Source: a virus
Direction: 5' to 3' (one strand)
Virus record (IMG/VR): IMGVR_UViG_3300042503_000997
Location: 1-34,695 of that record
DNA: 34,695 bases
The notes under the pieces are model-generated. The model was not told the DNA's origin, ran no database searches, and saw nothing but the letters and a program-made list of their open reading frames with translations. The translations under genes and the position numbers were made by a program. Numbering within the stretch: the first letter of the stretch is position 1; every line of letters begins with the position of its first letter. Positions 8,833 to 34,093 of this stretch are shown here, piece after piece.

Positions 8833-11709
8833 TTATGCTGCCCTTATCCACAATTTTACGGATGAAACTGTTTCTTTAGTTGCTTGTATTGTTGCTCCTG
8901 AAAACGTTCCACTGAAATTGCCAGAGAATTGTCTCGAGTAATTACCAAGGAAGTTTCCAGTTCCTATATAGGTTCCAGAATAAGTTCTAGATCCAGAGTA
9001 ACTTATTGTTCCTCCGTAGTTTCCAACATAGTTGCCAGAATAAGTTCTAGATCCAGCATACGCTTGGAGACCAGAGAAAAATCCTAGATAGTTACCAGAA
9101 TAGTTTCTCGAACCAGAGTAACTTATTGTTCCACCGTAGTTTCCTAAGTAGTTACCAGAATAGTTTCTCGATCCAGAATACGCTTGAAGACCAGAGAAAA
9201 CTCCTAGATAGTTACCAGAATAAGTTCTAGATCCAGAATAACTTATTGTTCCACCGTAGTTTCCAACATAATTACCAGAATAAGTTCTAGATCCAGAGTA
9301 AACGCCAGCATCACCATAGAATCCTAAATAGTTACCAGAATATGCTCTAGATCCAGCATAGTTCTGTGGACTAGTGTAGATTCCTGTACCCGAGTAGTTA
9401 CCACTGTAGTTTCTAGAACCAGCATAGTTCTGTGGTCCATCAAAGTTTCCAGTTCCTAAATAGTTACCAGAATAGTTTCTAGATCCAGAGTAGTTCGCTG
9501 GTCCAGTAAAGAATCCTGTTCCTGCGTAGTTACCAGAATATGTTCTAAATCCAGAGTAGTTCTGTGGACCTGCAAAAGTCCCTGTTCCTGCGTAGTTACC
9601 AGAGTATGCTCTAGATCCAGCATAGTTCTGCGGTCCAACAAAGTTTCCTGTGCCTAGATAGTTACCAGAATAGTTTCTAGATCCAGAAAACGTTCCGGAG
9701 TAATTTATATTCGGCGCTGCATAATACCCAACATATCCATCAGGTGGATCAAGCGTATAATTTCTAGAACCTGCGAAATTACCAGAATATGGTGGACCTG
9801 CAGGTCCCTGATAAAATACTGGGAAACTGCCGATTGGGGTCATATTCAGCGCAATGAATCCTGGACCTGTGTAGAATCCTCCAGGACCACTGAAGTACGG
9901 TGTCTCAAAAAATACTACCGTATCCATATTATTAGGAGTTGGTTGGTATATTGTGTATGGTGTACCAGAATATCCTATTTGTCCAGAAAACGTTCCTGAA
10001 TAATATTCTGCCATGAAGGACCCACCAGGAGCAGAGTATGATGGACCAGCATAAAATCCTGTGTAGTTTCTCGACCCAGAATAGAATCCAATAAAAGGGG
10101 GTGGTTCTGGTGAAAGGAAGTTTGGACCTATGTAGTTACCAGTATAATTTCTAGAACCAGCATAGTTCTGTGGTCCAACAAAGTTTCCTGTGCCCAGATA
10201 GTTACCAGAATAAGTTCTAGATCCAGCATAGTTCGCTGGACCAATAAAGTTCCCAGTTCCTAAATAGTTACCAGAATAGTTTCTAGAACCAGCATAGTTC
10301 TGCGGACTAGTGTAGGTTCCTGTACCCGAGTAGTTACCAGAATATGTTCTGGATCCACCATAATTCTGTGGTCCGACAAAGGTTCCTGTGCCCAGATAGT
10401 TACCAGTATAGTTTCTTGATCCAGAATAGTTTGCTGGACCAGAGAAGAATCCTGTTCCTGCGTAGTTACCAGAATATGTTCTGCTACCAGAATAATTACC
10501 TGAAAAGTTTCCAGTGCCTGCGTAGTTACCAGAATATGCTCTAGAACCAGAATATGCTCCACTAAATGAGGCAAATTGAAGATAACCTGCAGTGTAGTTT
10601 CTAGAACCACTAAAGTTACTAGCGAAAGTAGCGAACCCCAGATAACTACCAGAATAGTTCCTAGTACCAGAATATGCGCCACTAAATGTGACACCACCTA
10701 GATAGTTACCAGAATATGCTCTAGATCCACTAAAGTTTCTAGAGAAAGTAGCAAAACCCATGTACCCATCTGGGAAGAATAGGGCATAATTCCTGGAACC
10801 AGAATATGTTCCACTAAATGTGCCGCTACCAATATAATTTCCTGAATAGTTTCTAGATCCAGAGTAGTTCTGTGGACCAGCATAATTACCAGAAAAATTA
10901 CCAGTAAAATTACCAGTGAAGTTACCGACATAGTTTTGTGGTGAAACTTGTTCACGAGTATCTGTGAAGGTGTTACCAGATTGAATCCAAGTACCGCCAC
11001 TAGGCGCATCCGTTTGGATTTTATAGGTTCCGATACCAGTTTCAATAATTCTATTTCTGAAGACAGGAAGCATCTGTTCAATTTCTGCTTCGGTCATCTG
11101 CTTGCAGTTACCACCATTAAATATTCTTAGTGGTGTAAAATCTACTGTTGGCGCTGAAGACGCAACTGTTTTCTGCCACAGATATGTTACAGTGTTTCCA
11201 CCTTGCGCTGTATCTGTTAGTGTGTATCTTGCGACCCAAGTTCCGCCTGATGGTGCAGTTGCTTGTAGTTTGTATTGCCCAGCAGTATATGATGATTCCG
11301 CGACCATCGCCTCGACACAGAGATCCATGGTACCATCGATATCACCATCTGTCATTTCTTCTAGACGAGAATCCCATGCTAATGGTCTGTTGGTAATATT
11401 TTCAGTCGCCGTAGCAGTAACCTGCTTGGCAGTATATGTTGTTGTAGAGACTGCACCAGTAGCAGGATGCGTTCCGATAGATTCGTTTCTTGTCGTATCG
11501 ACAAACGTACCGATCGAAGTTCCTGCACCTGAGTTATTTGTCGTGATGTTTATTTCAGCAGTACCAGTACCATCTGTTACTGCAGCAAATTTTTCTGTGA
11601 TAACATTGGCAATATAATTTTTTACCTCTGCATCGGTCATGGTCTGCAAACCGCTAATGTTTGCAGAAGTGATTGGGGACCCTGTTGCCTTGACCTTTAG
11701 AGGATTCAT
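8833..11709 (-). CDS. Giant Gly-aromatic tetrapeptide-repeat fibre-like protein, copy A
   Basis: A 958-residue paralogue of the downstream gene. The head (about residues 1-258) and the C-terminal cap (ATKETVSSVKLWIR) match copy B. The array between them is built from longer composite units such as GSRNYSGNYLGTGNFVGPQN, richer in Pro, Thr and Ser-Arg than copy B. Around residues 525-670 the periodicity is broken by a Pro/Gly/aromatic segment with SPEPPPFIGF, YTIYQPTPNNMD and GPAGPPYSG. This may be a separate domain or knob in the shaft. The stop is followed after one base by the start of copy B, and its own start lies one base after the previous stop (TAAAATG), so three fibre genes look coupled. 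A virion surface role is inferred. Confidence 0.7.
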   Translation of the reverse strand: MNPLKVKATGSPITSANISGLQTMTDAEVKNYIANVITEKFAAVTDGTGTAEINITTNNSGAGTSIGTFVDTTRNESIGTHPATGAVSTTTYTAKQVTATATENITNRPLAWDSRLEEMTDGDIDGTMDLCVEAMVAESSYTAGQYKLQATAPSGGTWVARYTLTDTAQGGNTVTYLWQKTVASSAPTVDFTPLRIFNGGNCKQMTEAEIEQMLPVFRNRIIETGIGTYKIQTDAPSGGTWIQSGNTFTDTREQVSPQNYVGNFTGNFTGNFSGNYAGPQNYSGSRNYSGNYIGSGTFSGTYSGSRNYALFFPDGYMGFATFSRNFSGSRAYSGNYLGGVTFSGAYSGTRNYSGSYLGFATFASNFSGSRNYTAGYLQFASFSGAYSGSRAYSGNYAGTGNFSGNYSGSRTYSGNYAGTGFFSGPANYSGSRNYTGNYLGTGTFVGPQNYGGSRTYSGNYSGTGTYTSPQNYAGSRNYSGNYLGTGNFIGPANYAGSRTYSGNYLGTGNFVGPQNYAGSRNYTGNYIGPNFLSPEPPPFIGFYSGSRNYTGFYAGPSYSAPGGSFMAEYYSGTFSGQIGYSGTPYTIYQPTPNNMDTVVFFETPYFSGPGGFYTGPGFIALNMTPIGSFPVFYQGPAGPPYSGNFAGSRNYTLDPPDGYVGYYAAPNINYSGTFSGSRNYSGNYLGTGNFVGPQNYAGSRAYSGNYAGTGTFAGPQNYSGFRTYSGNYAGTGFFTGPANYSGSRNYSGNYLGTGNFDGPQNYAGSRNYSGNYSGTGIYTSPQNYAGSRAYSGNYLGFYGDAGVYSGSRTYSGNYVGNYGGTISYSGSRTYSGNYLGVFSGLQAYSGSRNYSGNYLGNYGGTISYSGSRNYSGNYLGFFSGLQAYAGSRTYSGNYVGNYGGTISYSGSRTYSGTYIGTGNFLGNYSRQFSGNFSGTFSGATIQATKETVSSVKLWIRAA

Positions 11710-12414: not shown

Positions 12415-15400
12415 TTACACCTGCAACGCAATCGCTCTAAGTTCTCTTACTAATGGAACTACAGAACTATTTGTTGATGTCGGAATAACCTTCACTGCGA
12501 AATTTTTGTATCCACTATAAGTCACACTTCCTGCAGTATATTCCAGAACTCCACCAACTTTATTTGCTGTAGGTATAGTATACTGGTATTCAACAAACCC
12601 AGATTTTCCAGTGCTAACTATTGGTGTTTGGGCGAGTTCTAATTGGATCCAATCTAGATCATCAAAATTACTCGGATCAGTCGCATTCTGGAATCTACCA
12701 TATACTCTAACATCACAACCAGCAGGAATCTGATTGCTCAGATAAACCTTTAGATCTTCAGCATCTTGACCGTCATCGAGAATAACACGACGAGAAATAT
12801 ACTTCGATGCTGCAGTTCCGTTGTTTCCATCTTCACCAGAAATATCATCTGGTCCATTAATATCATTGGCAATAGCGATCATTGAACATTTTCTGGTGTC
12901 GATTACAGGAGACACAGTTGATGTTTGAGTCACCATGCCTGCTCTTATGCTCAGAGATTTATCTCCACCCAAGTTTGCTTGCTCGTTTGAGTAAGAATAT
13001 ACTTGTGCTTCATATGTTAATGCATGTTCTTGCCCGAAGTTAAACCCTTCGTATGAATCTCCACCAGCGCTCGCGCCAGTAGCAGTTGGTGCTATAGACC
13101 AAGAAACTACCGCAGGAGTATGATCAATAAACCCGACATTAGTTTCCACAACATTAAGTTGTTTATTCTCGACTTCTATAATTTCAGCATAAGTCGTGCC
13201 ATTCCCAATAATATCAGTAGCAGTGAATCTGCCACTCCTTACTAAGATTTTACCAACATTATACAGAGAATCATACTGCTTCACGAATCCTCTATTCAGA
13301 GTTACCGCGACTACCGCAGCAGAACCACTACCACTTGAAATAGTTAGTGTCGGATTACTTGTGTATCCTGCTCCTGGATTTGTAACTACGACGTCAGTTA
13401 CTATTCCACCTGCAATTGTTACGGCGACAGTCGCATTTGTAGTAGCACCACCCCCTGAAAGAGTATGTGATATACTTCCATCTGTATAACCAGAACCTGC
13501 GTTTGTAATGTTGAATGAGAATCCGTGGATTGCATCTCCTGGTTCAAAATTTCCATTAGTAAACGAATCAAATTTCAAGAAGTCGACATCCATATTTTTC
13601 ATTTCAATCAAACCAACTGTATTAATATCGAAATCTGCGCGACGCAAAGTAAACTTGATATCTTCTGCTTGCCACGCTGTCCAAGATCTATCATTGGCAG
13701 ATGTAAATAGCACACCAATATTTGGTTGTTCAGAAATTCTGTTTTCAGTGCCAAGTTCATTTGCACCCAATTCAGAAACCCAAATATTATAATCTGGATT
13801 ATTACCTGCGGGAAGAAGAACAAAACAGTACTCTGTGTTATTTTGCAGGTATACTGGCGACGGGAACACAAAAGTTGTTGCTGCAGTTGCATCTTCACTG
13901 ACAGTAATATCGGCAGGATTCAACGTGACTTCACCGAATGGAATAACTTTATTTCCTGGGTATCCATTTACCACTTCGCGCAATTGGAGAGTGATTGGCG
14001 CAGTAGATGATTTGGTTCTGAAATATATGTCAAGGTTAGTGACATAACAACCAAATGGCATACCGTCAACGTAGAATGTCTGTGCGATAGGATCTCGATA
14101 TAACCTGCCTCCAGGACGACAGGCAGCAGGAACTTGGGTGGAGCAACTTGGTTCTTGATCATCGCTTATTGTTTCAAGCCTTATGTTATCCTGCCCACCA
14201 AACCCATTGGGTCCTCTAAGTACTCGCTCACTACCATTGGGAGTAAACTCTCTACAGATTGTTACTGGTGCACATGGATCTGGTTGCGGAGTATCGGGTT
14301 GCGGGACTACATCAGGTGCAGGAGTAGGTGCTGGTGTCGGAGCAGGAGTAGGTGCAGGTGTAGGTGCTGGAGTCGGTGCTGGCGTCGGAGCAGGTGTTGG
14401 AGCAGGTGTTGGAGCAGGAGTCGGTGCTGGCGTCGGAGCAGGAGTCGGAGCAGGTGTAGGTGCTGGAGTCGGAGCAGGTGTCGGCGCTGGTGTTGGCGTT
14501 GGAGATGGCGCTGGTGTCGGTGCTGGCGTCGGAGCAGGTGTTGGAGCAGGTGTTGGAGCAGGAGTCGGTGCTGGCGTCGGAGCAGGAGTCGGAGCAGGTG
14601 TAGGTGCTGGAGTCGGAGCAGGTGTCGGCGCTGGAGTCGGAGCAGGTGTCGGAGCAGGTGTAGGTGCTGGTGTAGGCACAATAATTGTTGTATACTCATT
14701 GTAAACATTAGTAACATTGGTGTTATTAACTACTACTGAATTATCAGTTACACTATTATCAATGTTTGTAGTGTTGTTGATAGTGGTATAGGTGTTGTTT
14801 ACATTGGTTTGCACAACTCCGACAGATCTATCAGCTAATCTATTCTCAGTCGTAGATGTTTCAAAGACTGATCTCGAATCAGAAACAGAACCAATCGCCA
14901 CATTTGCAACGCGAGTTGATACGACTGTATCTTGAACAGATTGTGACAATCCATTTGCTGACCATGTTTGCATCGCCGCAGTTGTTACAAATGGTTCGCG
15001 ATTGTGTGGATCATCACAGAGACGGAAATTCTTGTCGCCAGTACGGAATGTTGCTGCCGGAATTCTAAATTGTCCCACACAAACACCTTGAGCATTTGTG
15101 ATCAGGGAATCGCCATAATTACCATCAACATATGATGAATATGCTGCAGGATCGACAGGCGCAAGGTCTGTTGCTGGATCAAAATTCAGTGGTCTACAAT
15201 GCGTTGTAACATTAACACCATCAAAGAACGGGAATACTCGAGTATTAGGTTTCATTCTTTTTGCGATGAACGTCACCACAACTGAACGCATGAACGGAAT
15301 AATCGAAGTATCCGTTACACGAGCACCAATTCGTTGGGATTGTGTTTCAGGAGTTACCGATATAGAAACGCCTTGACGAGTTTGGCGCTGTTCCGTCGTA

Positions 15401-18400
15401 GTAGTAACAACTTGTGCTTGTTCTTGGAAAAGCGTATCACCACTTATTGTTGCATTACCAGCAACAATTTGTGAAGTTTGACCAACTGTACTTCTTCCAG
15501 TTACAACATCTTGCCAATCATCTGGTTTGAGTGCGGTATCCGTCCAGTTATCGACTGGTGGATCTAGTTCTATATTTCCGATGTAATTAAAGAGTAACTC
15601 TCCAACACAATTTCTTGGTTTAGAGGCAGATGGATTTTTAGTCAGTTCAAAATTGCGATATGGAAGAGTGATCAAGTCACCCGTCTGATATACGTTCGAT
15701 GAGTTAGCATAGTCAAACGCGAGATCGATATTTTCTAAATAGAAGAAAGGACGCATCTCTTTCTTTACTGGGTCGATCGAAATATGATATGCACTGTCGA
15801 AAACGTTGCCGACATTATGTCCAGTAAACGCATCAACTAGGATCCCGTTTTTAAAACGGTCAAGACCTGCAGCATCTGGGATCGATAGATCGCTTGCTGC
15901 TTTCTCGAGTAGAGATAGTGAAGTATAATACTCAAGACGATTAATACGTTGCTCGAGAACACCAATATCGCGCATAGTATAACGACGGTTATCAATGCTG
16001 CGGAATGTTACACCATAGTCAGGGCGATTAACAGACTTCGCGACATTTGGAGCAAGCGATGGATATGGTGGAATTGTTATAGTTGCCAACGACATCGCAT
16101 TTTCAGGTTCTGCAGGAATTCCAGGAGTCAGGGATGGTGTACCATATATGGTACTGAACACACCTTCTGAGTCGATAATAAGTCTATCTGTTCTTCCAAG
16201 ATAATACTCGAGATCAGTAGTAAACTGTTCGGTTGGAACTGGATTTGTGATACCAACAGAAGGAGCAGATATCGTTGTGCTCTCGGTCGGATTGGTTGTC
16301 GCAGTTCCTAGTGAGGCGGAATTTGCTGCAGAATCTGCATAACGAACACGGAAATCTAGTGTATCGCGTAAATCATATGTAGCACCTGTCAGTGGAGATT
16401 TATAGACTGGGATATCCTGTGTCTTAATCGTTCCTGCAGTTGCACCAGTATCATCAATCGGATACGAATCAACTACAAAGAAAGTACCGTCTGCAGAAGC
16501 ACCATCGTGGGTGAAGTAGTCAAGTTTAATTACCAACTTCTTATTTGTAAGCGAAGGTGCACTAGGTTTCTTGATGATTTTAGCGTTACGATATTCGTTG
16601 TCGCGTTGCCCATTATCAAGCGTAAACGAAGAAGCAATATCTACACCAGCAGCAACTACTGCAGCATCAGTATCAGTGTTAGCACCAATAAAGATATTTT
16701 TAATTTGATACGCATCTGACAGACCCAGTGAATACGTACCAGTATTTGTTGATGGGTGAGTATTCGTATTGATAATTACGTAACGATCTTCACGAAGAAC
16801 CTTAAGAATAGGTTGTGCATTTGCTGTTTGAACATTGACATACAATTTAATATCAACTGGAAGTGTTACGGGCGAATTAACTGCTACTCCCCCCGCTAAA
16901 TCTATTGTGATGGATTGTGCCGAGTTCTTTGTGAACGTAGCAGCAGTAAGAGCAATATTAGAACCAATTGGTCTTGAAACCGAGTTGATTGTTGCTGCTT
17001 CTTTCATAATCATGGTGAAGTTGTTGTTGATGACCGTAGAAGTAAATCCATCAGATGCATATGGGAAGTTCTCATCGCCACTCAGAGTGATGGTTACTTG
17101 TCCAGAAGAATTAAGTTCCCCGTCGAATTCTTTGGTGTAGATAAATGAGTTATCGTAAACTGCATTCGGGGCAATTGTTTTCGTTGCGCGAGCAGGAATT
17201 CTATAAAGAGATTTGTTGAAACTTGTTTCTTGTAGAACAGCATTTCCGCCTACGAGAACAACATCGGCATGTCCATCAGCAGTATCATTATAGAAAATAC
17301 CACGAACATCCTTAAAATCTCCACTTGACATTGCAATATCATAGAGATATAAACGATATTCTGCCGCAGCAGTTCCAACTGTTCCAGATTCATATACAAT
17401 TTGTTTTACACGAGCAGTACCAACTTGAGATCCTGCCGCTGCAGTAGCAGAAAATGTTGTTGCAGTGATTGCCCCTGCTGCTGCGCTGCGAAGACTGACT
17501 TTATCGCCAGTGTTTAAATCCCACATTCCGCAGAATTCATCTACGAGAATATAATTACCATATGCTGTGCTAATCGGAACTTCTTGTTGATTGACTGTTG
17601 TTAGACCCTTTGGAACAACAACGTATTCTGTTTGAAATGTTTCGTGTTCAAACCCGCGAACATATACCTTACCTGCTTCGACACCGATAGCAAGCAGATT
17701 TGCACTACCACCGCTTTCTGGATTGATAGTGTTTAGATCTCGTAAACCGTTATTGCCATCAACATTGAGATGCTCTTTAATCAGAACAGGGAATTGTCTT
17801 ACTGCATAGTTACCCGATTCATCATATGTGCGCCTTGCCATGTTCTTGCCAAGTTCGCCATAAATATTTGTAGTATATGTTCTCTGAATTTCACCATTGA
17901 TAATATCGACCAATTGATTAAACGTTGGAGGAATTGTGTCAGTTGGTTCGTATGCAACAAGTGTGGTTGAAACTTGGTATCTATCTGCACCAGGAGCAGC
18001 ATAGTTGAAGGATCCTTGAGCAGGATCCAATAAGGTTTGATCATCTTCAGGAGAAACAGTATTTTCTACAACCTGGAATCCAACCTTCAGAGTTGGACGC
18101 ACATCATACTTAGAAAGTATAATTGTTTGTGTTTCGTGATTGACGAATTTACCATCAATATACACGATACCAGAATCAACAGTTAGAGCAGAGGAGAGAC
18201 CCCAGTAACTGTTAATTGGATCTGCTTCATCAAATGTGTCATCGACAACAAACGTATCACCGTTTCTGCCTGCTATTGTGGAAGATACTGTTAGAGTTTC
18301 TCCGCCTAAGAAGTGAACCGCAGACGAACCATCGCCGCTGGTGTAACGAAGATACAAAGTTTTTAGATTCGGTAGTTCTGCTTCAGTGCCTGTTGCAACA

Positions 18401-18720
18401 TCAAGAATAACTGCAGTCATACCTGATGTGTTTGATACCGTATCACCGATATAGGTTGATAGAACATCATTATCTACGTCTGCATCTGTAATTTTAATGA
18501 ATGCTCGTTGCGAGTCAAGTTTGAATTCACAACCCTGAACAACTGAACCATTCTTGAAAATATGGTTTCCGAATTTACCGATTTGGGATTGCAACAGAGT
18601 CTGTAGTTGCGTAAGTTCGCGTGCCTGTACTGCATATCCAGGTCTGAACAGAACTCGATTGAAATTTTTAGTATCATCAAAGTCATCATAGTATGGAGAT
18701 ACATTTAAATTCAGTGCCAT
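12415..18720 (-). CDS. DUF4815 giant structural protein with PAPT linker
   Basis: A 2101-residue virion protein. The N-terminus ([48 protein letters not shown]) is the DUF4815 signature found in marine T4-like phage structural proteins. Residues about 1298-1348 are Asn/Thr/Val-rich ([12 protein letters not shown]), followed by about 30 PAPT units (1349-1469). The C-terminal part has [16 protein letters not shown] and a lectin-like beta region, then two copies of the GxGYT module ([18 protein letters not shown]) and a beta-rich end. Placement straight after gp8 is where T4 has gp9/gp10, so it may replace the peripheral wedge/pin proteins or be a long fibre. The PAPT tract would act as a stiff extended spacer. 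AGAGAGA precedes the ATG. Confidence 0.8.
14314..14677 (-). repeat. 12-bp repeat array encoding about 30 PAPT units
   Basis: The array encodes PAPT repeated about 30 times with one interruption (PSPTPT, near 14491-14514). Inside it a 119-bp segment at 14372-14490 is repeated exactly at 14516-14634, an offset of 144 bp or twelve units. This shows segmental duplication of the array rather than only unit-by-unit drift. Confidence 0.95.
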
Positions 18721-24118: not shown

Positions 24119-26005
24119 TTATTCTTGCGAGTTAGCAATTGCAGTGACAGTTAGTCCTGCAGGAATATTTACTGTAGAATTTGCTGCACTTGTATCTAAT
24201 GTCAACACAGTATTTCTAGCAGCATTCGGGAAAATTGCTGCTGTCGATACATTTGAAGTTGATGTTAGATCTGTCGTTAAGATATTTGGTGAATCACCAA
24301 ACGGTTCAACATAGACTCTAAGATCTGTGTTTGATCCAGGATCGACAAAGAGATCTATAATGTTGACAACACCTGTAGTATAATCAACATTTCCTATGTT
24401 AGAGAGAACAATGACATCATCTTCTACTCGTTTCATCACAAGAGTTCCAATATCACCAACTGTAGTGTCATGTTGATCAGTTATGTAAACATCGTACTCT
24501 TGTGTTCCAATAATTGTAGTAAAGGTTGTTGTTCTTAGTGTTTCAGGTTCCAAAGGACTATTAAATCTTACGACGTAATCTTCAGGGATTCCTGTAAATA
24601 TCGTTAGTCTTTTATGCATCAGCACTTGAATGCTGGCAGAGAAAATAGACTGTGTGGTTCCAGCAACGGCAGAAAGCAACTTAGAGTAATAAAAGTTCTT
24701 CTGCAACTTATTAACATTATTCGTGAAGAAACTTTGCACAACTGCTCTGACCTCAGACTCAATTCTTGAGGAGGTAAGAGATGTGATTGTCTTGTTGTAG
24801 TTGACTGAAATATTCAATCCGATATATGTCTCGATCGGATCTACGAATTCGGGTTGAATAGAAACAACACTTCGCGGTCTAATAATGTCTCTAGCAATAA
24901 TATCTTTATCTGCTTGTGAGATAATAGATCCAGGTAATGGTTGAATCGAGATAAACACCTTACCATAAATTGGAGGATTGTTTTCTTCACCACCCCAAAC
25001 AGCGATAGAATTAATATTCCCGAATCTTGATCTGATCAATGTTTCATAATCATCAGATGTCACAACACGGTTTTTAGTTGAGTTAAATTTCGGAGCATTG
25101 TAGCGAATACTATCTACGCTTTCCTTTTCACTGCCACCAGTAGCAGCAGATCCCAGATAAACGTTTTTACTTTCACCCGAAGCAGTGAAAGTTCTAGATG
25201 CTGAGAAATTGGGAATAGAGTTCGCCGCTGGACCGCTACTTACGATATAATCGATACTAACAATATTGCCAACTTGCAGTTGCTGTCCAACAATATCATC
25301 ACCAAATCTTATTTCGTAAAGTCCAGATGGACCTTCTTCAATGAAAAATGCTCTAGTTGATCCATCTACGTCTAAAATATCATCAAAAAGGTTCCATGTA
25401 GTGATTGATGTAACTGCATTTGATTGCTGTACTCTAACTCTTATGGTAGTAGTATCAATATTACCATTTGGTAAAATGAACGGTCCAGATTTATTAGATT
25501 GATCGACAACAAATGTATTATTTACTCTCTTACCTTCAATCAGTTCCATCGGGAAATTGAACCCTGTTTGACCTGTTTCAAGAACAACTAATCCAGAAAC
25601 ATAGTCTTCTCGCGGGAAGAAAGTATATGTGTTCTTTGCTGTTTTTGCAATGAACGGTGTATCGCGTGTCACAGTCAAACTTGTATTGGTAAAGGTTTCC
25701 GGTGGTCTGATTTGCAATGTGATATTTGCACGAGCAGATCTTCTAGAAGTCGGTGTATATCCTAATGTTTTCGCAATAGATGTAACTGAGTTTCTCTTGA
25801 CTGCGCTATCAATAAACATTTCATTTGCTTGAAGATGCGCGAGAGTTGCGTTATAGTGCGTGTTATATGCAAGAATATCAAGAAGTATCGTGAGACCAGA
25901 TCCATCAAAGTTGTAATCTTGAAACTCCTCTTGCGATTGCAGGAAGGTTTTTAGATTTTCCTTGATAGTTGCAAAATCTAATTCAGTTACATTGAGTTGA
26001 GACAT
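24119..26005 (-). CDS. gp6: Baseplate wedge protein gp6
   Basis: A 628-residue protein of the gp6/Mu gp47/P2 gpJ family, close to T4 gp6 in length (660). Diagnostic N-terminal blocks are LDFATIKENLKTFLQSQEEF, GLTILLDILAYNTHYNATLA, EMFIDSAVKRNSVTSIAKTL and GYTPTSRRSARANITL. Later parts include the RSRFGNINSIAVWGGEENNP segment and the RPRSVVSIQPEFVDP region typical of baseplate_J-like proteins. gp6 dimers form the continuous inner ring of the baseplate with gp25 and gp53 and control sheath contraction. The gene starts one base after the gp25 stop (TAAGATG), in the conserved gp25-gp6 pair found in most contractile systems. Confidence 0.92.
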   Translation of the reverse strand: MSQLNVTELDFATIKENLKTFLQSQEEFQDYNFDGSGLTILLDILAYNTHYNATLAHLQANEMFIDSAVKRNSVTSIAKTLGYTPTSRRSARANITLQIRPPETFTNTSLTVTRDTPFIAKTAKNTYTFFPREDYVSGLVVLETGQTGFNFPMELIEGKRVNNTFVVDQSNKSGPFILPNGNIDTTTIRVRVQQSNAVTSITTWNLFDDILDVDGSTRAFFIEEGPSGLYEIRFGDDIVGQQLQVGNIVSIDYIVSSGPAANSIPNFSASRTFTASGESKNVYLGSAATGGSEKESVDSIRYNAPKFNSTKNRVVTSDDYETLIRSRFGNINSIAVWGGEENNPPIYGKVFISIQPLPGSIISQADKDIIARDIIRPRSVVSIQPEFVDPIETYIGLNISVNYNKTITSLTSSRIESEVRAVVQSFFTNNVNKLQKNFYYSKLLSAVAGTTQSIFSASIQVLMHKRLTIFTGIPEDYVVRFNSPLEPETLRTTTFTTIIGTQEYDVYITDQHDTTVGDIGTLVMKRVEDDVIVLSNIGNVDYTTGVVNIIDLFVDPGSNTDLRVYVEPFGDSPNILTTDLTSTSNVSTAAIFPNAARNTVLTLDTSAANSTVNIPAGLTVTAIANSQE

Positions 26006-26006
26006 C

Positions 26007-26405
26007 TTATCTACTTCTTCTTAGAACAGTTGAAAATGAAACGGGATCCGCAACCCCGACAACATAAAAATAAATGGATACATTAAATGCATTCTGATCA
26101 AAGAGAGGCACAACATCTATCTGCTGCGATCTAACTCGTGGTTCATACTTATTAATTAATAACTCTAACCGCAATTTCAAAGAATTGGCAGTAACAATAT
26201 CAACGTTCTCGAACATCATACCATAGATCGGAGAACCAATTTTAGGTTGGAATGGTCTTTCGTAGAAGTTCGTAAGAACGAGAACTTTCAGTGCTTGTTT
26301 TACAGCATTGACATCAAACTTCCTCGCAACGTCACCCGTAATTGGATGCGCTGCGAAGGATAAGTCTAGATCCGAATAGATTCTGTTTACTGTTTTTGTT
26401 GTCAT
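26007..26405 (-). CDS. gp25: Baseplate wedge protein gp25
   Basis: A 132-residue protein, the same size as T4 gp25 (132). It has the family core IYSDLDLSFAAHPITGDVAR, VKQALKVLVLTNFYERPFQP, IGSPIYGMMFEN and the EPR motif at residues 88-90 (LLINKYEPRV), which in this family contacts gp6 and the sheath. gp25 is the structural core of the baseplate and resembles the T6SS protein TssE. There is no good ribosome-binding site before the ATG: the 15 bases between the previous stop and this start mostly consist of a TATAAATA octamer that ends five bases before the ATG. The start is otherwise well supported by the alignment. Confidence 0.95.
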   Translation of the reverse strand: MTTKTVNRIYSDLDLSFAAHPITGDVARKFDVNAVKQALKVLVLTNFYERPFQPKIGSPIYGMMFENVDIVTANSLKLRLELLINKYEPRVRSQQIDVVPLFDQNAFNVSIYFYVVGVADPVSFSTVLRRSR

Positions 26406-26420: not shown

Positions 26421-29400
26421 TTACCAAGGAGTGAATTTGCCAGGACTTATAATTTTAGTGCTACCATTAGACTGCAATTTAGCAGTTCCGTTTGCAGTTC
26501 CGCTTCGTTTCTGACCGTTATAAAGAACCCAACCAATATGAATCCATGCTGTTTTTCCACTAGCAGTTTCTAACAGAATTTGATCACATTTCGGTAAAGA
26601 AGTTGCAATGTAATTTGCGATTTCAATCATCTTCTTACGATTATCTGCAAATCCCCATTGAATATCTACTGCAGCGTATCTATGTGCACTTTTCGTATCA
26701 TGACGGTAACCAGAGTTGATTCTAAATCCTGGATATCTTTCTCTCAATGGTTCTAGGATGTTCAAACACAAACATCTATAGTTTTGAATAATATCCCATT
26801 GACTGATCACACCCGTTCCGCCCTTTAAAGATCTCGGATATGCAATAAATTGACTTAACTTACGAGGGTAGAATGCCTTCGAGAAAAAATCATCCAAAAT
26901 ATAGTTATCGGACAATTGAATATTACCTGTTATTTTACCACCACCAAGTGCTGGCATCGGTTTTTTAGTTTTATAAAAAACGTTACATCCAGGAATAGCA
27001 TCAGGAACCTTACCAAAGTCGCCAGTCACAGCACCATCATCACCACCATCTGCCGCTGTCCCTGGACCTGATGGTTGAGATGGATCTGATTTGTCGATAC
27101 AATCTTCAGTACCACTATCTTGTTCATCTGGCACATCATTCTCAGTATTATCCGGAACACCCTGTGATCCACCGCTAACACCCCCCGCTGCAGCGCCACC
27201 AACATATTGCGATTTACCAGTTACTGACTTGCTGACAGGTTTCTCGACAGTCTTAATAGTTGACAATGGAGCAGCAACTGCACATACTGCATCAGTAGCG
27301 GAACCAGCAGAAGCAGGTGCAGTAACGGAAGCTGATCCAGCAACAGGAAGATTATGGGTACTTCCGCCATTGGTGCCAGTGTCAGTTCCTGTTGCTCGAA
27401 GATTCGTGCTCGCAGCATTTAATGTAGAAACATCGATTGTTGGCGCATTAAAGTCAGATGATAGAACCTTTGCTGCCTTGAGACTTGTATTACCCGCAGA
27501 CTCAGTATTCAGAACTCCACCAGATTTAATATTAGTATCTCCAGTGGACTCGACATTAACTGCCGCACCAGATTTAATTTCAGTTGCTGCACCTGATTTG
27601 GTTTTTATTGCTGCATCAGTGCATAAGTTTGTATCACCCGTTGAATGATTGAAGAATGACCCTGCTGATTTAATATGTGTATCTGCTTTGGAGGTGACAT
27701 TGACGCCTGCATCAGAAGTCAGATTAAATTTACCTGTTACATCAGTTGTCATGTTACCTTTGGCATCAATATCAATATCACCAACATTCTCCAGTGACAT
27801 TGAACCGCCGTTTCTTGCGTAGATTCCGTCACCAACAGATAGTGCTAATCTACCTGCAATATTGACATCAACATCATTGTGGAAGTCCATTGAAACTTTA
27901 CCATGCATTGTTAAGTTAGTATCACTCATGATGATCACATTACAGTTTCCAGCAACGTGAACGTTCGCAACACCTTCGATTAAGATGTATCCGTTCTTGT
28001 CTAGAATTGTGTAACCATCACCAACAATCTTGGTTACTTTGGTTCCATTCGGTCCAATCTCATCGAATGTTCCCGATCTGTGTGCCCAGTTAAGACGCTC
28101 CGATCCAGGAGTATCATCTATTTCGATAGCATGACCTGCTTCAGAACCAAATACTTTATTGAATGGATATTGCGCATTATATGGCGATTCTGGTTGTGCC
28201 CATGTAACACCATTTCTTCCTGCAGTTTGGACTTCACGTTTTCTAGACGCATTTCTTGCAGCAGGAGAGGCCCCTGCGCTTAATGTTTCTCTATTCCCAG
28301 AAGAACTCTTGGGACTCTTTCCGATTTGCGGAGAGTTTACGCCTGTTGCTAATGGATTTGTATCAGGTTTATTGACTGACGATCGGTGAGGATACACACT
28401 ATTGGGATCTTTAAATCCTTTAGTTTCATCTTGTTTATCTGCAGGTAATGCATCAGTGTTTTTTGGTTGGTTGTTTGCTCTAAAGGTGTCAGTCGAATTG
28501 TCAGCATTGACCTTCTCACTATCTGCAGCATTTTGCACCTGCGTTGGTGGAGGTGATGTTACATCTGGTTCTTCTGCTTTAGTTTCAAGATCAATTTTCT
28601 CAGAAGTTGTTTCCTTAGTTCTGAAAGTTCCATCTGCGCTTACAGTTTCAACAACAGTAGTTTTTGTTCCATCAGGATTATTAGTTACTGTTGTTACTAT
28701 GCTATTACCTTCAACATCAAAAGTTGTCACTGTAGTCGGATCTACAATTTTAAGTTGCTTTTTTATTGGTGCAACATCAGTGTCAAACGAAGAAACGATC
28801 TGAGTTTTCGCTGATTGTAGCAGTTGATATTTTTCTTGCATCCCAGTTATTTTTGCTGCTTGAATTGCTTTGTCTAACTGTGCGCCAAGACTATCAATAG
28901 AAACTGGTCTTGATACTGCTATTTCCTTACCATCATATAGAATCCTACCAGAAATGTCAGTTCCAACTGCTGTATATTCTACAACCAGATTACCAATGGT
29001 ATTTTCTACTGCAGATGATGCACCTTCTATTGTTGGTAGAACAGGTACATCTGGTTTTGCGATGCTAACTTGTAACGGTTTACTAGCAACCGAATTATAT
29101 CCAATATCATACCAGTATTTTGATGTAACACCTGTTGTGTCTTTCTTAATAATACCATTTGCATAATTTGCCGCAGTATCGTAGTTGACACATAGTGCTA
29201 CTGATAGTAATCCAGCAACAATCTCAGTATCAGTAGAATCGTTAATTATTCTGGCATTATATAATAAGTTGTAGATGAATTTCAAATAATCAAATGCGAT
29301 TTCATCTTGGAGTGATTTAAGCGAAAGAATGTCATATGCTGTTTGTAGGCGAGGATTGGTAGGGATTCCAGTAAGTGCAGTAGTAATGAAGTAATACTGC

Positions 29401-29777
29401 GCACTATTTTTTGCTTCAATCTTAGATTCCGCGAAATCTAACTCGGTGCCATATTTTTCTTTTGCTGACTCGTAATACGATTTTCGCGTGTCTAGTTTTT
29501 CTGGGCCTTCTGGGCGATCGATCAATGTATTGTCGATGTAATCTCTAGCAAGAATACCTACCCAACTCGCGTCAATCAATTGATTGATTGTTAATCTGTA
29601 TGCACCATACTCACCACCATTATGAATCTTTGACCATATGTCTTTAGAACCAGCAACAGGGTACTGTTCCTTGATGGCATTTTGGCAAGCAATAAGAAGT
29701 TTTGAGATATCTTCTGTCGACAAGTTTCCAATATCTGCACTAATACTTTCTGGAGTAGTTTCATAAATGCTAGTCAT
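26421..29777 (-). CDS. gp5: gp5-type beta-helix spike protein with M15-like peptidase domain
   Basis: A 1118-residue protein. N-terminal helical region (1-240) includes GGEYGAYRLTINQLIDASWV, which may be a degenerate lysozyme/transglycosylase-like domain (uncertain). A low-complexity linker (about 350-530) is followed by a gp5/VgrG-type needle: SEAGHAIEIDDTPGSERLNW (545-564), HRSGTFDEIGPNGT, then a beta-helix (about 590-800) with repeats like GDIDIDAKGN, GDTNIKSGG. A Gly/Ser/Asp linker leads to the C-terminal domain (about 950-1090) with SGYR (1022-1025), SAHRYAAVDIQWG and WIHIGW. H1032, D1038 and H1080 fit the zinc ligands of M15 D-Ala-D-Ala peptidases. It would puncture the outer membrane and cut peptidoglycan cross-links. 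The OB domain of gp5 is not here but in the upstream gene. Confidence 0.85.
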   Translation of the reverse strand: MTSIYETTPESISADIGNLSTEDISKLLIACQNAIKEQYPVAGSKDIWSKIHNGGEYGAYRLTINQLIDASWVGILARDYIDNTLIDRPEGPEKLDTRKSYYESAKEKYGTELDFAESKIEAKNSAQYYFITTALTGIPTNPRLQTAYDILSLKSLQDEIAFDYLKFIYNLLYNARIINDSTDTEIVAGLLSVALCVNYDTAANYANGIIKKDTTGVTSKYWYDIGYNSVASKPLQVSIAKPDVPVLPTIEGASSAVENTIGNLVVEYTAVGTDISGRILYDGKEIAVSRPVSIDSLGAQLDKAIQAAKITGMQEKYQLLQSAKTQIVSSFDTDVAPIKKQLKIVDPTTVTTFDVEGNSIVTTVTNNPDGTKTTVVETVSADGTFRTKETTSEKIDLETKAEEPDVTSPPPTQVQNAADSEKVNADNSTDTFRANNQPKNTDALPADKQDETKGFKDPNSVYPHRSSVNKPDTNPLATGVNSPQIGKSPKSSSGNRETLSAGASPAARNASRKREVQTAGRNGVTWAQPESPYNAQYPFNKVFGSEAGHAIEIDDTPGSERLNWAHRSGTFDEIGPNGTKVTKIVGDGYTILDKNGYILIEGVANVHVAGNCNVIIMSDTNLTMHGKVSMDFHNDVDVNIAGRLALSVGDGIYARNGGSMSLENVGDIDIDAKGNMTTDVTGKFNLTSDAGVNVTSKADTHIKSAGSFFNHSTGDTNLCTDAAIKTKSGAATEIKSGAAVNVESTGDTNIKSGGVLNTESAGNTSLKAAKVLSSDFNAPTIDVSTLNAASTNLRATGTDTGTNGGSTHNLPVAGSASVTAPASAGSATDAVCAVAAPLSTIKTVEKPVSKSVTGKSQYVGGAAAGGVSGGSQGVPDNTENDVPDEQDSGTEDCIDKSDPSQPSGPGTAADGGDDGAVTGDFGKVPDAIPGCNVFYKTKKPMPALGGGKITGNIQLSDNYILDDFFSKAFYPRKLSQFIAYPRSLKGGTGVISQWDIIQNYRCLCLNILEPLRERYPGFRINSGYRHDTKSAHRYAAVDIQWGFADNRKKMIEIANYIATSLPKCDQILLETASGKTAWIHIGWVLYNGQKRSGTANGTAKLQSNGSTKIISPGKFTPW

Positions 29778-29780
29778 AGA

Positions 29781-30767
29781 TTATACCTTGTATTTCTTTT
29801 TATAATATGCGAATTTATTTTTTCTATCCGCATAACCATTTGGTTCTTTTCCCTGCTTCAATTTTTTCTCTGAAATATATCCATTTATTGCCATACTAAC
29901 TTCTAGGATATCCCCCCAACGATTATTTTTACCAATCTTTGGTCTTTGTGTATTAAAATAAAACAGAATTAATTCTGCAGCGATTTCTTTTTGCGCTGCT
30001 AAATCAGGATTATTCAATAGATCTTTACCAATATATTTACCTGCGCTCCTGTAGTTATTTTTCCATGTAAGTTGTAAAAATCCTCTACCTTTGTATTTTG
30101 CTCCATCTCCTGGAGAAGTATTACCATTCTGTCTTGCCGCATTTGTATTTTCGTATCTACTAAAATAACTTGCTTTACCCATTTCCTGTAATGCTTTAAA
30201 TCCACCAGTTTCATGACTACATTGTGCCATAATCATAGCTTTTGCGACAGGACTATAATTCTTCAACTTTGATCCATTAAGATCTAACCAAGATTCTAAA
30301 TATGATTCTAAATCTTTTGCATTGCCCGATGGTTGGGTAACTGCACCAATGTCACCTTGTTGAGAGTCAGATGAACCACTAGATGTTGCCGCATCTTCTG
30401 TAGATCCAGATCCTTCTGATGGTGAACAATCATTGGAACTTAACCCCCCAGGAATTGCCCCAACAGTTCCAAAGAACATAGGGTGTTGGCCATTTTCACC
30501 ATCGGCAAAAAACCCGACTACCCAAGATCCTTCAACTGCACCTGTTGGTGACCAACCGACACCAGAAGTTCCTGCTGAGTTTGATGGCATTACAGGCATT
30601 GCCCATGGAAGATCTTCTGTTGGGAGTGTTTCGTTGTCTTCAGTGTGATACCCAATAATTCTTACTCGACATCTACCCAAACGCAATGGATCGTTGCGAT
30701 CTTCGACCACACCAAACCACCAATAAAAGTTTGAATTATTGTTAGATGTAATATTATCCATCGCCAT
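29781..30767 (-). CDS. gp5 OB-fold protein fused to a GH19-like lysin domain
   Basis: A 328-residue protein. Residues about 13-105 match the N-terminal OB-fold of gp5 (FYWWFGVVEDRNDPLRLGRC, RVRIIGYHTED, PWAMPVMPSNSAGTSGVGWS, GSWVVGFFADG, HPMFFGTVG), which sits on the gp27 hub ring. A Ser/Gly linker (106-150) leads to a lytic domain (about 150-328) of GH19 chitinase/endolysin type: AQCSHETGGF with E186 as likely catalytic acid, then KGRGFLQLTWKNNY (226-239) and SMAINGY (291-297). T4 gp5 has a different, GH24, lysozyme at this place. Its likely role is local peptidoglycan digestion during injection. The start at ATG 30767 overlaps the hub gene by 14 bases; a second ATG lies two codons later. 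Confidence 0.85.
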   Translation of the reverse strand: MAMDNITSNNNSNFYWWFGVVEDRNDPLRLGRCRVRIIGYHTEDNETLPTEDLPWAMPVMPSNSAGTSGVGWSPTGAVEGSWVVGFFADGENGQHPMFFGTVGAIPGGLSSNDCSPSEGSGSTEDAATSSGSSDSQQGDIGAVTQPSGNAKDLESYLESWLDLNGSKLKNYSPVAKAMIMAQCSHETGGFKALQEMGKASYFSRYENTNAARQNGNTSPGDGAKYKGRGFLQLTWKNNYRSAGKYIGKDLLNNPDLAAQKEIAAELILFYFNTQRPKIGKNNRWGDILEVSMAINGYISEKKLKQGKEPNGYADRKNKFAYYKKKYKV

Positions 30768-32340
30768 TATTTAACTCTTCCACTTCATAAATTTCTTGTG
30801 CATAGGAATCCTTAGAAATCTCCAAAAACATAGTATGCCTGAGAGGTGATATTTGATGATGTATTGCAGTTATCATATAGATACCTGTTACAAATTTATC
30901 CCATATCAATGCTTCAGAATCCTCTTTAGTCTTCTCACCAACAGATGGATAGTATAACTTGATCATTCTACCCACTTCAGCATCAGTTCTTCCTGGAACT
31001 GTCAATTGTAATCTTAATGTTGTCAGATCCATCAAGGAACTATTTCTCTGAGACACAAAATCTTCAGGATGCAGATCAACAGAATCTTCAGTAGAATCCA
31101 ACACACCAGGATTGACTGTGGAAACAAATGGTTTATTGTCCGAGGATCGCAAGACATTTATTGGGAAAATCATCTTATATTTTTTGGATGAATTTTCTTT
31201 ATCTTTGTCTAATGTATATGTGTTATTTGCTGCGTCATATGTCGCGTCTTCCATATGAGCATATTCTCTGTAATTAAATCCATGATCATAGTAGTATGAT
31301 TTGTAATCTTTCTTGACCATGTCAAACGAGTGCACGGTGCTGGCGAAATGTCCGAGATCTTGACTTTGTATAACATCTAAATTAGTAATAAATTGCAATG
31401 CTTCAATAGTTTGGAATCCCTTGATCAACGAGGAAACAGTTTGTAAATTGCTCAAATTAGTGTTATAAACAAATGCAGAGTATATATCATTATTGGTCAA
31501 CTGATTCGCCACAAGACTTTCTATTGATACAAAATAAAATCCCTTTGTTGTCTCATAAAATAAGAATGTCGGAGATTTATATGTAAGACCAATTGATCGT
31601 GCCGCCAACCAATTCAAACATTGAATTGGTGTCCACATCGGAGGAACGAATGTTATGTGCGAATCGTGCGGAGTGTCTCCAATAAAAAATTCAGTAAAAC
31701 CATCCTGCGCAGAAAATTGGTTTTCATCCGTCGTTTGATTGCTTACTTTACCTTCTTCTTCCGATCTTGATTTATCCCCAACATTTTTATTAGCAAAGAA
31801 TCGTGGAGAATTCATGTGTTCAGTAAAAATCTCAGAAGCAATTTCGTCCGTTGTACCTTCGAATTTTTGACATATCTTTGTGATATTGTCAGTTGATGCT
31901 TCTAAAGAACAAAAAAACAACTCATAATATTGTTCTCTGTCATTGTTAAGTTTACGATTCTTTACTGAATAAACCGAAAATGACTTTTGGATTTTATTAA
32001 TTGGATCGAATGTTCCAAGATTACCCTTTGAATATCCACCTAACTCGGCCCACGGAGTTTGAATATCCATAGTAAGAACTTCATCACCGATTATGGGTAA
32101 TCTTCCGATGAGATTCAACGAATCGCGAATAATTACTGAACCATGTAGAGTCGGGGAAAAGATATCTTCATAAAGATTTATTTCCATCATAAATGGTTTC
32201 AGATCTAGTGGATCTTCTGACGATATGACACTCAGATCCAGAGTTGTAATTATTACATCTCCTGGTTTCGTTATTGCGTCGCTTATTGCCTTTGGTGGTG
32301 ATGCCGTAGTTTTTTCTTGACCTACTGGTGATTCTGCCAT
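30754..32340 (-). CDS. gp27: Baseplate hub protein, gp27-like
   Basis: A 528-residue protein just upstream of the gp5 OB gene, as expected for the hub on which the spike sits. Readable blocks are MMEINLYEDIFSPTLHGSVI, GDEVLTMDIQTPW, FSVYSVKNRKLNNDREQYYE, TWIPIQCLN-like PPMWTPIQCLNWLAARSIG and the C-terminal ITAIHHQISPLRHTMFLEIS followed by KDSY. This is the architecture of phage hub proteins of the gp27/gpD/VgrG-N type: two beta-barrel domains joined by an alpha/beta middle. T4 gp27 is 391 residues, so this form is longer. The first 30 residues are a flexible Ala/Pro/Thr tail. A weak AGTAGG ribosome-binding site precedes the ATG. Trimers are expected to link tail tube and spike. Confidence 0.8.
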   Translation of the reverse strand: MAESPVGQEKTTASPPKAISDAITKPGDVIITTLDLSVISSEDPLDLKPFMMEINLYEDIFSPTLHGSVIIRDSLNLIGRLPIIGDEVLTMDIQTPWAELGGYSKGNLGTFDPINKIQKSFSVYSVKNRKLNNDREQYYELFFCSLEASTDNITKICQKFEGTTDEIASEIFTEHMNSPRFFANKNVGDKSRSEEEGKVSNQTTDENQFSAQDGFTEFFIGDTPHDSHITFVPPMWTPIQCLNWLAARSIGLTYKSPTFLFYETTKGFYFVSIESLVANQLTNNDIYSAFVYNTNLSNLQTVSSLIKGFQTIEALQFITNLDVIQSQDLGHFASTVHSFDMVKKDYKSYYYDHGFNYREYAHMEDATYDAANNTYTLDKDKENSSKKYKMIFPINVLRSSDNKPFVSTVNPGVLDSTEDSVDLHPEDFVSQRNSSLMDLTTLRLQLTVPGRTDAEVGRMIKLYYPSVGEKTKEDSEALIWDKFVTGIYMITAIHHQISPLRHTMFLEISKDSYAQEIYEVEELNNGDG

Positions 32341-32346
32341 TATTAA

Positions 32347-32859
32347 TTACCTACTAATCAAATTCGAATACACAGATACAAATTCCGCTAAGTATTTTGG
32401 ATCCAAAATCTTTATCTCTCGCTTACCATTATTTAGTTCTTCTTCATACTCATAGTTAGAAACAACATTTATCGCACCACTCGCTAAATCTGCTACGTCG
32501 TAATCAACAACCAATTTGGGTTCATCAGATGTTCTATAATGGTGTGGTAAATAAATTCCTGTCTCGCCATATTTCTTTTTACAATATGCAATTAAATCTG
32601 AAGAACCCATTGGCCATTCTCTTCGTGCATCGACGATTTCATTTACTGCCATAATAACCCAATGGTAATCTGGACTGCTGTAAAACTTATCAGAAACTTG
32701 CTCGATTGTGTAACCATCCGGAACAGTTATTGTCTGTAAAAAAACAACATTATTCTTGAATTTATTTGTAGAGATTCTACGAAAAATATCAGTTACAAGC
32801 GTTGCCGTATTTGGCGTAATCGTATTGACCAGCATTTTCGGGAACATAGAAAATAACAT
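32347..32859 (-). CDS. gp53: Baseplate wedge protein gp53
   Basis: A 170-residue protein. It starts at ATG 32859 (MLFSMFPKMLVNTITPN), one base after the gp48 stop (TAATATG) with AAGGGA upstream; the earlier TTG at 32877 is less likely. The family signature is present: VPDGYTIEQVSDKFYSSPDY followed by HWVIMAVNEIVD, REWPMGSSDL and a C-terminal KREIKILDPKYLAEFVSVYS. The WP motif and the (D/Y)YHW block are typical of gp53, which has a LysM-like fold. In T4, gp53 (196 residues) clamps the gp25-gp6-gp7 core and joins wedges around the hub. Its place next to gp48 and the hub gene agrees with this. Confidence 0.88.
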   Translation of the reverse strand: MLFSMFPKMLVNTITPNTATLVTDIFRRISTNKFKNNVVFLQTITVPDGYTIEQVSDKFYSSPDYHWVIMAVNEIVDARREWPMGSSDLIAYCKKKYGETGIYLPHHYRTSDEPKLVVDYDVADLASGAINVVSNYEYEEELNNGKREIKILDPKYLAEFVSVYSNLISR

Positions 32860-32860
32860 A

Positions 32861-34093
32861 TTAGTATCCCTTCTCAATTCTGTCTGTGGTCAAGGTTTCC
32901 AACTCAGAGAATTGCAATCTGACAAATGCTTCAGTTGGACATCCATTAGAGAACGTGGTAAACCCTTCTGCACCGTAATCTATCGCCATGTCTGTCAGTA
33001 CACAATTTGATATTTTTCTGACATATGTATTCTCGGCGCCATTGTGATAGTAGATTATCATAAATTCTGATGGATAAGTTTGGAACAACCCGTTAGGACT
33101 CAGAGTTGGATGCATGTGCGAAGCAAACAATTTAAGTATACCGTTTTCACCGAAAACGACATCTGCTTCTGCTTCATTATATGGTGCAAATCTATAGTCG
33201 AATGAGAATTTTCTAAATCCCATAGACCTAAACAATTGCTCTTTGTATGGGTTTTCTACTTTCTTAGAAGTTGCCTGAAGAACATTGGTAAACTGATCAA
33301 ACCCAGCAATGTTCGCAATACGACCTGCTTTTCTTATCATATAATCAGCAGTTTCTGTGCCTTCGGTAAATAACCCACCAATTGATGCCTTACCCGAAGC
33401 AAGACCACCGATAAGTGCACCAAGATCTGCGGTCTCATAGTTTGCATTATAACCTGCCGAGATTTTTTCTGGTATATAAAGGATGATCTCATCACTACCA
33501 ATTACTAGGCGTTGCTCCCCCGCTATCGCACTAGCAGCAACACCTGCTGCAGCACCAGCACCAGCACCCAAAATTCCGCCAACAAGACCTGCTGCCATTT
33601 TTACGCCGATTGATACTGGACCACCTGTAGCATTAGGATTAGGATTAACAGTTTTACCACCATTTGCAGTTAATGACGCACCGAGGGATTTAGCTAGACC
33701 AGCACCACCAGCAGCGCCCAATGGAGCACCAATCAATGCACCAGCAGCGCCTGTTGCCACCTTACCATTTTCTGGGTCGACTCTGTTCTGATCTGTTTGA
33801 TCAAAAATTCTACCACCACCAGATGACAACAATTCCTTGCCTCGTTTTGTTCCTTCGCGCACGAGAGGATAGAAAACAACATAATGTGGAAACTCTGCAG
33901 AGTTTCCAACATTTATCGGATAGCGTTTCTGCCCATCTTTATCCAGTGGCGTTTCTAGGAAATTGAGTGGCGCAGTACCTCTACTGAACCGACTTTCTTT
34001 TTTTGGTGCAGGTGCTGCAGTCGCAGCAGCAGGTGCAGTTGCTCCTGGAGCAGGAGTTTGTGCGGGAGGCGCAGGCGCAGGAGTTAATGCCAT
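32861..34093 (-). CDS. gp48: Tail tube cap/baseplate protein gp48 with Gly/Ala-rich insert
   Basis: A 410-residue protein. The N-terminus is Pro/Ala-rich (residues 1-30), followed by APLNFLETPLD and YPINVGNSAEFPHYVVFY, as in marine T4-like gp48. The C-terminal half has MGFRKFSFDYRFAPYNEAEA, HPTLSPNGLFQTYPSEFMII and SNCVLTDMAIDYG followed by RLQFSELETLTTDRI, the pattern of gp48/gp54-type tube initiator proteins. gp48 caps the hub and starts tail tube polymerisation. Between them, residues about 113-142 and 164-192 are Gly/Ala-rich and hydrophobic with glycine-zipper spacing (GGILGAGAGAAAGVAASAIA), unusual for a tube cap. The ribosome-binding site is weak. It heads the late baseplate transcript, with a late promoter 36 bases upstream. 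Confidence 0.82.
   Translation of the reverse strand: MALTPAPAPPAQTPAPGATAPAAATAAPAPKKESRFSRGTAPLNFLETPLDKDGQKRYPINVGNSAEFPHYVVFYPLVREGTKRGKELLSSGGGRIFDQTDQNRVDPENGKVATGAAGALIGAPLGAAGGAGLAKSLGASLTANGGKTVNPNPNATGGPVSIGVKMAAGLVGGILGAGAGAAAGVAASAIAGEQRLVIGSDEIILYIPEKISAGYNANYETADLGALIGGLASGKASIGGLFTEGTETADYMIRKAGRIANIAGFDQFTNVLQATSKKVENPYKEQLFRSMGFRKFSFDYRFAPYNEAEADVVFGENGILKLFASHMHPTLSPNGLFQTYPSEFMIIYYHNGAENTYVRKISNCVLTDMAIDYGAEGFTTFSNGCPTEAFVRLQFSELETLTTDRIEKGY

Follow-up and report, generated by a model that had tools for sequence, protein, structure and literature searches.

A two-gene T4-type spike from an environmental phage with predicted GH19 and M15 hydrolases and an exchangeable enzyme on the OB-fold chain

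The window, which is the whole stretch of 34,695 bases analysed here from an IMG/VR virus record, contained a T4-type baseplate operon on the minus strand. Pfam and PHROG matches gave the gene order gp48, gp53, gp27-like, a 328-aa gene, an 1118-aa gene, gp25 and gp6 (Table 1). The products of the 328-aa and 1118-aa genes were designated P0002 and P0001, respectively. The named phages closest in gp6 were Synechococcus, Pelagibacter and Methylophilales myoviruses, at 32-35% identity, and no DNA-level relatives were found among named phages. Identification as a cyanophage through psbA was tried and rejected, as the gene was not found in the ten relative contigs searched.

Several other genes were noted in the window. 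Directly after gp8 lies a gene for a 2101-aa protein (12415-18720; phrog_358, phrog_877), possibly an outer baseplate component. Two large proteins of 751 and 958 aa (6576-8831 and 8833-11709), which had no PHROG match, are possibly tail fibres. At the left end, two genes (345-1211 and 2750-3445) were related to a single family of phage glycosyltransferases (phrog_1962); they are separated and followed by unassigned genes.

Table 1. Genes of the baseplate operon and domains of the two spike proteins, in operon order
Feature	Position	Strand	Basis
Tube cap gp48	32861-34093	minus	
gp53	32347-32877	minus	
gp27-like hub gene, directly upstream of the 328-aa gene	30754-32340	minus	PHROG_350 tail protein, E=4.6e-69; hub of BUCT-ZZ01 in the same place relative to gp5
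P0002, 328 aa, intact ORF	29781-30767	minus	
gp5 OB fold, P0002 residues 1-120; predicted to dock on the gp27-like hub	30408-30767	minus	Pfam Gp5_OB; T4 gp5, E=1.4e-18; PHROG_430, E=1.5e-44
Gly/Ser-rich linker after the OB fold, P0002 residues 121-149; left junction of the swapped cassette in relatives	30321-30407	minus	Sequence; breakpoints in two relative pairs
GH19-type hydrolase cassette, P0002 residues 150-328; predicted catalytic E186 and E195	29784-30320	minus	Pfam GH19; PDB GH19 endolysins and chitinases; Glu conservation
P0001, 1118 aa, intact ORF	26421-29777	minus	
Degenerate lysozyme-like domain, P0001 residues 1-245 (about the first 230); predicted catalytic Glu replaced by I36	29043-29777	minus	AlphaFold; BFVD; hhalign; alignment
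Middle region, P0001 residues 246-442	28452-29042	minus	Conserved in relatives
gp5 linker motif F-x-DP...YP...DTN-LA, P0001 residues 445-493	28299-28445	minus	Tail of Pfam Gp5_OB (positions 72-117; weak, below cut-off); aligned to T4 gp5
Triple-stranded beta-helix needle, gp5C-like, P0001 residues 508-820	27318-28256	minus	PHROG_430; T4 gp5 needle
Low-complexity tether from needle to peptidase, probably flexible, P0001 residues 821-940	26958-27317	minus	Sequence composition
M15-type zinc peptidase, P0001 residues 951-1092; predicted ligands H1032, D1038 and H1080; E1070 also invariant	26502-26927	minus	PHROG_894; family alignment; Pfam M15_3 in relatives; Foldseek 1lbu, then MepA
gp25 baseplate wedge gene, directly downstream of the 1118-aa gene	26007-26405	minus	Pfam GPW_gp25; PHROG_261
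gp6	24119-26005	minus	
1097-aa wedge-like protein, then gp8, after gp6 in the operon		minus	

The original prediction had put the OB fold on a protein of its own together with a GH19-like domain containing E186, and the searches bore this out. Residues 43-106 of P0002 matched Pfam Gp5_OB above its cut-off (E=1.4e-14), and residues 177-277 matched Glyco_hydro_19 (E=1.4e-14; 54.9 bits against a cut-off of 25.5). Against PDB sequences, the GH19 part matched GH19 endolysins and chitinases, of which 7r6s and the endolysin 4ok7 were the best (5.7e-16 for 4ok7). E186 lies within the motif SHETGGF and E195 nine residues further, and in the alignment this spacing is that of the Glu pair of 4ok7, which we take to be catalytic. 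Among 34 distinct GH19 cassettes, E186 was kept in all and E195 in 33. P0002 was accordingly placed in GH19 on a profile match above cut-off and two predicted catalytic Glu residues.

Endolysins commonly belong to GH19, and the window, which is a fragment, gave no second recognisable lysin gene. P0002 might then be mainly a late-acting endolysin for lysis, with an incidental OB fold. We consider this very unlikely, as the GH19 domain is fused to a 120-residue gp5 OB fold, the gene lies between the hub and needle genes, and two relatives have separate GH19 genes elsewhere.

The beta-helix that had been predicted on the 1118-residue protein was found as well. Residues 508-793 of P0001 matched the PHROG gp5 hub family (PHROG_430, E=1.4e-49), and the needle matched that of T4 gp5 (E=3e-16). 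The F-x-DP...YP...DTN motif, which in T4 lies between the OB fold and the lysozyme, leads into the needle in P0001. Residues 246-442 gave no family match, though they are kept in relatives. The needle chains of relatives are up to 1942 aa long (L036), with long additional regions.

For the end of this chain, an M15-like peptidase with H1032, D1038 and H1080 had been proposed. The residues were right, like all coordinates and residues named in that proposal, and they are conserved; the placement in M15 was obtained only through the family. By itself, the C-terminus of P0001 had no Pfam match. It matched a PHROG endolysin family (PHROG_894, E=5e-8), and 15 of 27 relatives matched Peptidase_M15_3 (best E=2.8e-7); scores in relatives reached 27-33 bits against a cut-off of 23.2. 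In the 27-sequence alignment, R1025, H1032, D1038, D1065, Q1066, E1070, W1078 and H1080 were invariant. These include the zinc-binding pattern of M15, H-x5-D ... W-x-H, which was retained in 64 of 67 sequences in the wider set; there H1032, D1038, E1070, W1078 and H1080 were each kept in 64-67 of the 67.

Structural comparison gave a weaker indication. With an M15-family model (pLDDT 85), Foldseek returned first the Zn DD-peptidase 1lbu (probability 0.92, E=0.03) and then MepA, matches that are weak and in the right clan. The M15 profile matched hedgehog proteins and 1lbu among PDB sequences, at E values of at least 0.25.

Across 36 distinct split needles and 10 single-chain spikes, the M15 domain was always terminal, with 0-8 residues remaining. 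A further branch has it as a gene of its own immediately downstream, and in phages of Pseudomonas and Vibrio it comes after the PAAR motif on the tip protein. Such PAAR-M15 proteins were seen at L096:3440-4447, L097:3464-4453, L098:3437-4459 and L005:5658-6659, and some are annotated merely as 'PAAR motif of membrane protein' or endolysin. The record of phage PA5oct notes ESI-MS/MS for its M15 copy; the same remark is attached to metabolic enzymes, so it is no proof that M15 is located in the virion.

The PAAR profile matched neither the window nor ten relative contigs; the contigs are fragments, and diverged caps may escape the profile. This result, together with the PAAR tip proteins of other phages that themselves bear the M15 domain, speaks for M15 at the tip. 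On the other hand, the tether of about 120 residues is probably flexible, and being so long it need not hold M15 at the very tip. The peptidase could fold back along the needle and work beside GH19, with the tip capped by a PAAR-like protein that escaped recognition because it had diverged or because the contigs are incomplete. We regard this arrangement as unlikely, and prefer M15 at the far end.

The two-gene arrangement, with an identical split point, was present in dozens of further contigs, which excluded an assembly or frameshift artefact. In the window both genes are in the same frame and one codon apart, as would suit readthrough of the stop codon that joins them into one protein, so that the spike would not be truly split. 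Among 65 gene pairs, however, 25 were out of frame, and the gaps ranged from -4 to 24 nt (the loci are partly redundant). Since neither frame nor spacing is conserved, readthrough was rejected as exceedingly improbable, and we took the spike to be encoded as two proteins.

The N-terminal part of P0001 was modelled by AlphaFold (first 245 residues, pLDDT 89). A Foldseek search of BFVD with this model found viral 'baseplate hub + tail lysozyme' proteins (E=7e-6), and solved structures gave weak MltE-like matches (E>2). At the sequence level, the profile of this domain matched nothing in the PDB. PHROG_27932 (hub and tail lysozyme) was matched by 13 of the 15 members of the family, and hhalign aligned the profile with the lysozyme-like domain of rhizobial phages (96.6%, E=5.5e-10). 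The homology to lysozyme-like domains was thus drawn from the viral models and the profile comparison.

In the intact homologues, the Glu of a conserved R-E-S motif is predicted, by analogy with lysozymes, to be catalytic. At this putative active site, Ile, Val, Leu or Met was found in the window (I36) and in all split relatives with a readable column, while of the eight single-chain or rhizobial rows seven retained the Glu. In L081 the change is free of gaps (DVSGG against RESGG). On the simplest reading of the alignment, the N-terminal domain would be a vestige of the lysozyme-like domain of an ancestral spike, kept for its structure.

The domain behind the OB fold differed among relatives. 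Besides GH19, it was the phage tail lysozyme PF18013, a Hydrolase_2/SleB-like enzyme (just below cut-off), GH24 or a VgrG3-like C-terminal domain (PF21277); in more distant phages the slot held a VanY/M15-type enzyme (Melnitz, below cut-off) or CHAP (phiM9). Seven hydrolase families were counted in the slot of 62 distinct split OB proteins. GH19 occurred in 36, the VgrG3-like domain in nine, the SleB-like enzyme in six and PF18013 in four; GH24, an SLT-like domain (by inspection only), VanY and CHAP occurred once each, and the slot was empty or truncated in three. The sample was seeded with GH19, so these proportions are biased; matches to the OB fold comprised more than 600 stretches in all.

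Close pairs located the junctions. L046 and L048 were 92% identical as far as codon ~131 in the OB gene. The next ~480 bp could not be aligned; one codon ahead of the stop, the alignment resumed at 96.7% identity and extended over 5.4 kb. PF18013 occupied the slot in one and the Hydrolase_2/SleB-like enzyme in the other. L072 and L088 could be aligned as far as codon ~118, and the alignment returned at the stop codon (93.7% over 7.3 kb), with GH19 in one and a GH24-type domain in the other. Between the window and L064, the OB fold and needle were 92-93% identical, and only one third of the linker-GH19 part could be aligned, at 70%. Judged from these alignments, the OB-linked enzyme is a cassette in which unrelated hydrolases are swapped exactly, between flanking DNA of 92-97% identity, and the breaks fall in the linker and at the end of the gene.

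The cassette is not obligatory, as L133 and L164 have a short OB protein without an enzyme. Strict complementarity, in which the cassette would be present only where the needle lysozyme is dead, was rejected because L133 and L164 lack both. An OB protein with the C-terminal domain of type VI VgrG3 was observed in a phage at L141:6986-8095 (PF21277, E=2e-55), one of nine distinct proteins of this kind. GH19 genes apart from the spike were seen on the contigs of L032 (G001:C1:120646-120891) and L045 (G004:C1:91788-92036); they are candidate lysis endolysins and possible donors for the spike slot. We found no published description of the cassette exchange or of the degenerate lysozyme-like domain in the literature covered, which is incomplete and has most subscription journals outside it.

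A degenerate hydrolase domain is already present in this spike, so loss of activity does occur here. GH19 and M15 might likewise be inactive, serving in wall binding or persisting as structural leftovers, as the lysozyme-like domain apparently does. Against this, the Glu pair and the zinc ligands are almost invariant in divergent relatives, and the slot is nearly always refilled by another hydrolase family, not by binding domains. Inactive domains are in our estimation scarcely probable, and we retained the reading of two active enzymes.

The presence of GH19 and M15 on the same spike is supported by the location of both genes in the gp27-gp25 interval and by the single-chain spike of Synechococcus phage BUCT-ZZ01. 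We propose that P0002 and P0001 form a T4-type central spike that works and exchanges its cassette as follows, and we assign this reading a probability of about 0.78. Three OB-GH19 chains would cap the gp27-like hub, placing three glycan-cutting domains at the base of the needle. Three needle chains would form the beta-helix and carry three M15 peptidases at the far end, on tethers of about 120 residues. Contact between the OB and needle chains, without the covalent link of T4, was assumed. On contraction of the sheath, the needle would pass through the outer membrane. The peptidases at the tip would then cleave stem peptides or cross-links and the GH19 domains the glycan strands, producing a hole for the tube. 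Of this picture, the sequences themselves show the domain make-up, the conserved residues, the decay of the lysozyme-like domain and the exchange of cassettes, and the assembly, location in the virion, activities and succession of events are inferred from them.

The needle chain would retain the lysozyme-like domain of a single-chain ancestor, probably in a structural role after loss of the catalytic Glu, and the glycosidase role would have passed from this domain to the enzyme on the OB chain. Recombination with one junction in the linker and the other at the end of the gene replaces the hydrolase as a unit, and the hub, OB fold and needle remain unchanged.

A wider interpretation may be offered tentatively, at somewhat less than even odds. 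In a large group of environmental T4-like phages, the split of gp5 may have freed the OB-linked hydrolase to be exchanged as a precise cassette among unrelated families, the lysozyme-like domain may have decayed to a scaffold, and a trimer of M15 may have replaced the PAAR cap. The outcome would be a fixed peptide cutter combined with an interchangeable wall cutter, possibly matched to the host wall.

Descriptions of wall-degrading domains in virions usually assign a single enzyme to each spike. The spike studied here combines predicted glycan-cutting and peptide-cutting enzymes in a T4-type phage; according to a review, virion lysins that cut peptides are found almost only in phages of Gram-positive hosts (PMC6116005). 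We consider the clean natural replacement of the OB-linked enzyme to be of more interest than the original prediction, which holds. Near-identical pairs that differ only in the spike enzyme amount to natural experiments, in which the match between enzyme and host wall can be tested. In Pelagimyophages, the available part of one study states that gp5 is far more variable than the baseplate protein VrlC and suggests adaptation to the host wall; the cassette is not described in that part (PMC7029224).

In comparison with known systems, T4 gp5 shares with the present spike an OB fold, a peptidoglycan hydrolase and a triple beta-helix needle, with hydrolase and needle on separate chains at maturity. 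The T4 needle ends in a gp5.4 cap, whereas P0001 has M15 at the needle end and a lysozyme-like domain without Glu in its chain. In T4 a T4-type (GH24) lysozyme lies between the OB fold and the needle; in the window GH19 lies on the OB chain. T4 gp5 is one gene whose precursor, with OB fold and needle, is cleaved, whereas the window and dozens of relatives have two ORFs. The original prediction described T4 gp5 as a single chain. This holds for the gene and the precursor, and not for the mature protein, which is cleaved after the lysozyme domain (Ser351-Ala352) to give the complex (gp27-gp5*-gp5C)3 (PMC3004832). Separate chains for hydrolase and needle are thus not new in themselves.

Split gp5 has also been published, for phages phiM9, vB_RleM_P10VF and Atu_ph04 (PMC6630229); the original prediction had missed this, as well as the degenerate lysozyme-like domain and the swapped cassette. 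In these rhizobial phages the OB protein carries a hydrolase, which is CHAP in the case of phiM9, and the needle is on another chain together with a homologous lysozyme-like domain. phiM9 differs in that its OB and needle genes are about 37 kb apart, the lysozyme-like domain has the Glu, and M15 was not found on the needle chain.

The gp5 of BUCT-ZZ01 (ON615601) has the OB fold, GH19, needle and M15 in the same order, and the linker motif as well. It is, however, a single chain of 939 aa in which the degenerate lysozyme-like domain was not detected. Methylophilales phage Melnitz has two adjacent genes, one for OB fold and hydrolase and one for needle and M15. It differs in that the OB enzyme is a VanY/M15-type peptidase (below the Pfam cut-off) and the needle chain is without the lysozyme-like domain.

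Evolved VgrG and PAAR effectors of type VI systems likewise have an enzyme at the terminus of a gp5-like spike or on its PAAR tip, and the VgrG3-like C-terminal domain occupies one class of phage OB slot. Here, by contrast, the genes belong to a phage baseplate operon, and the swapped enzyme of the window's group belongs to the OB chain and does not follow the needle.
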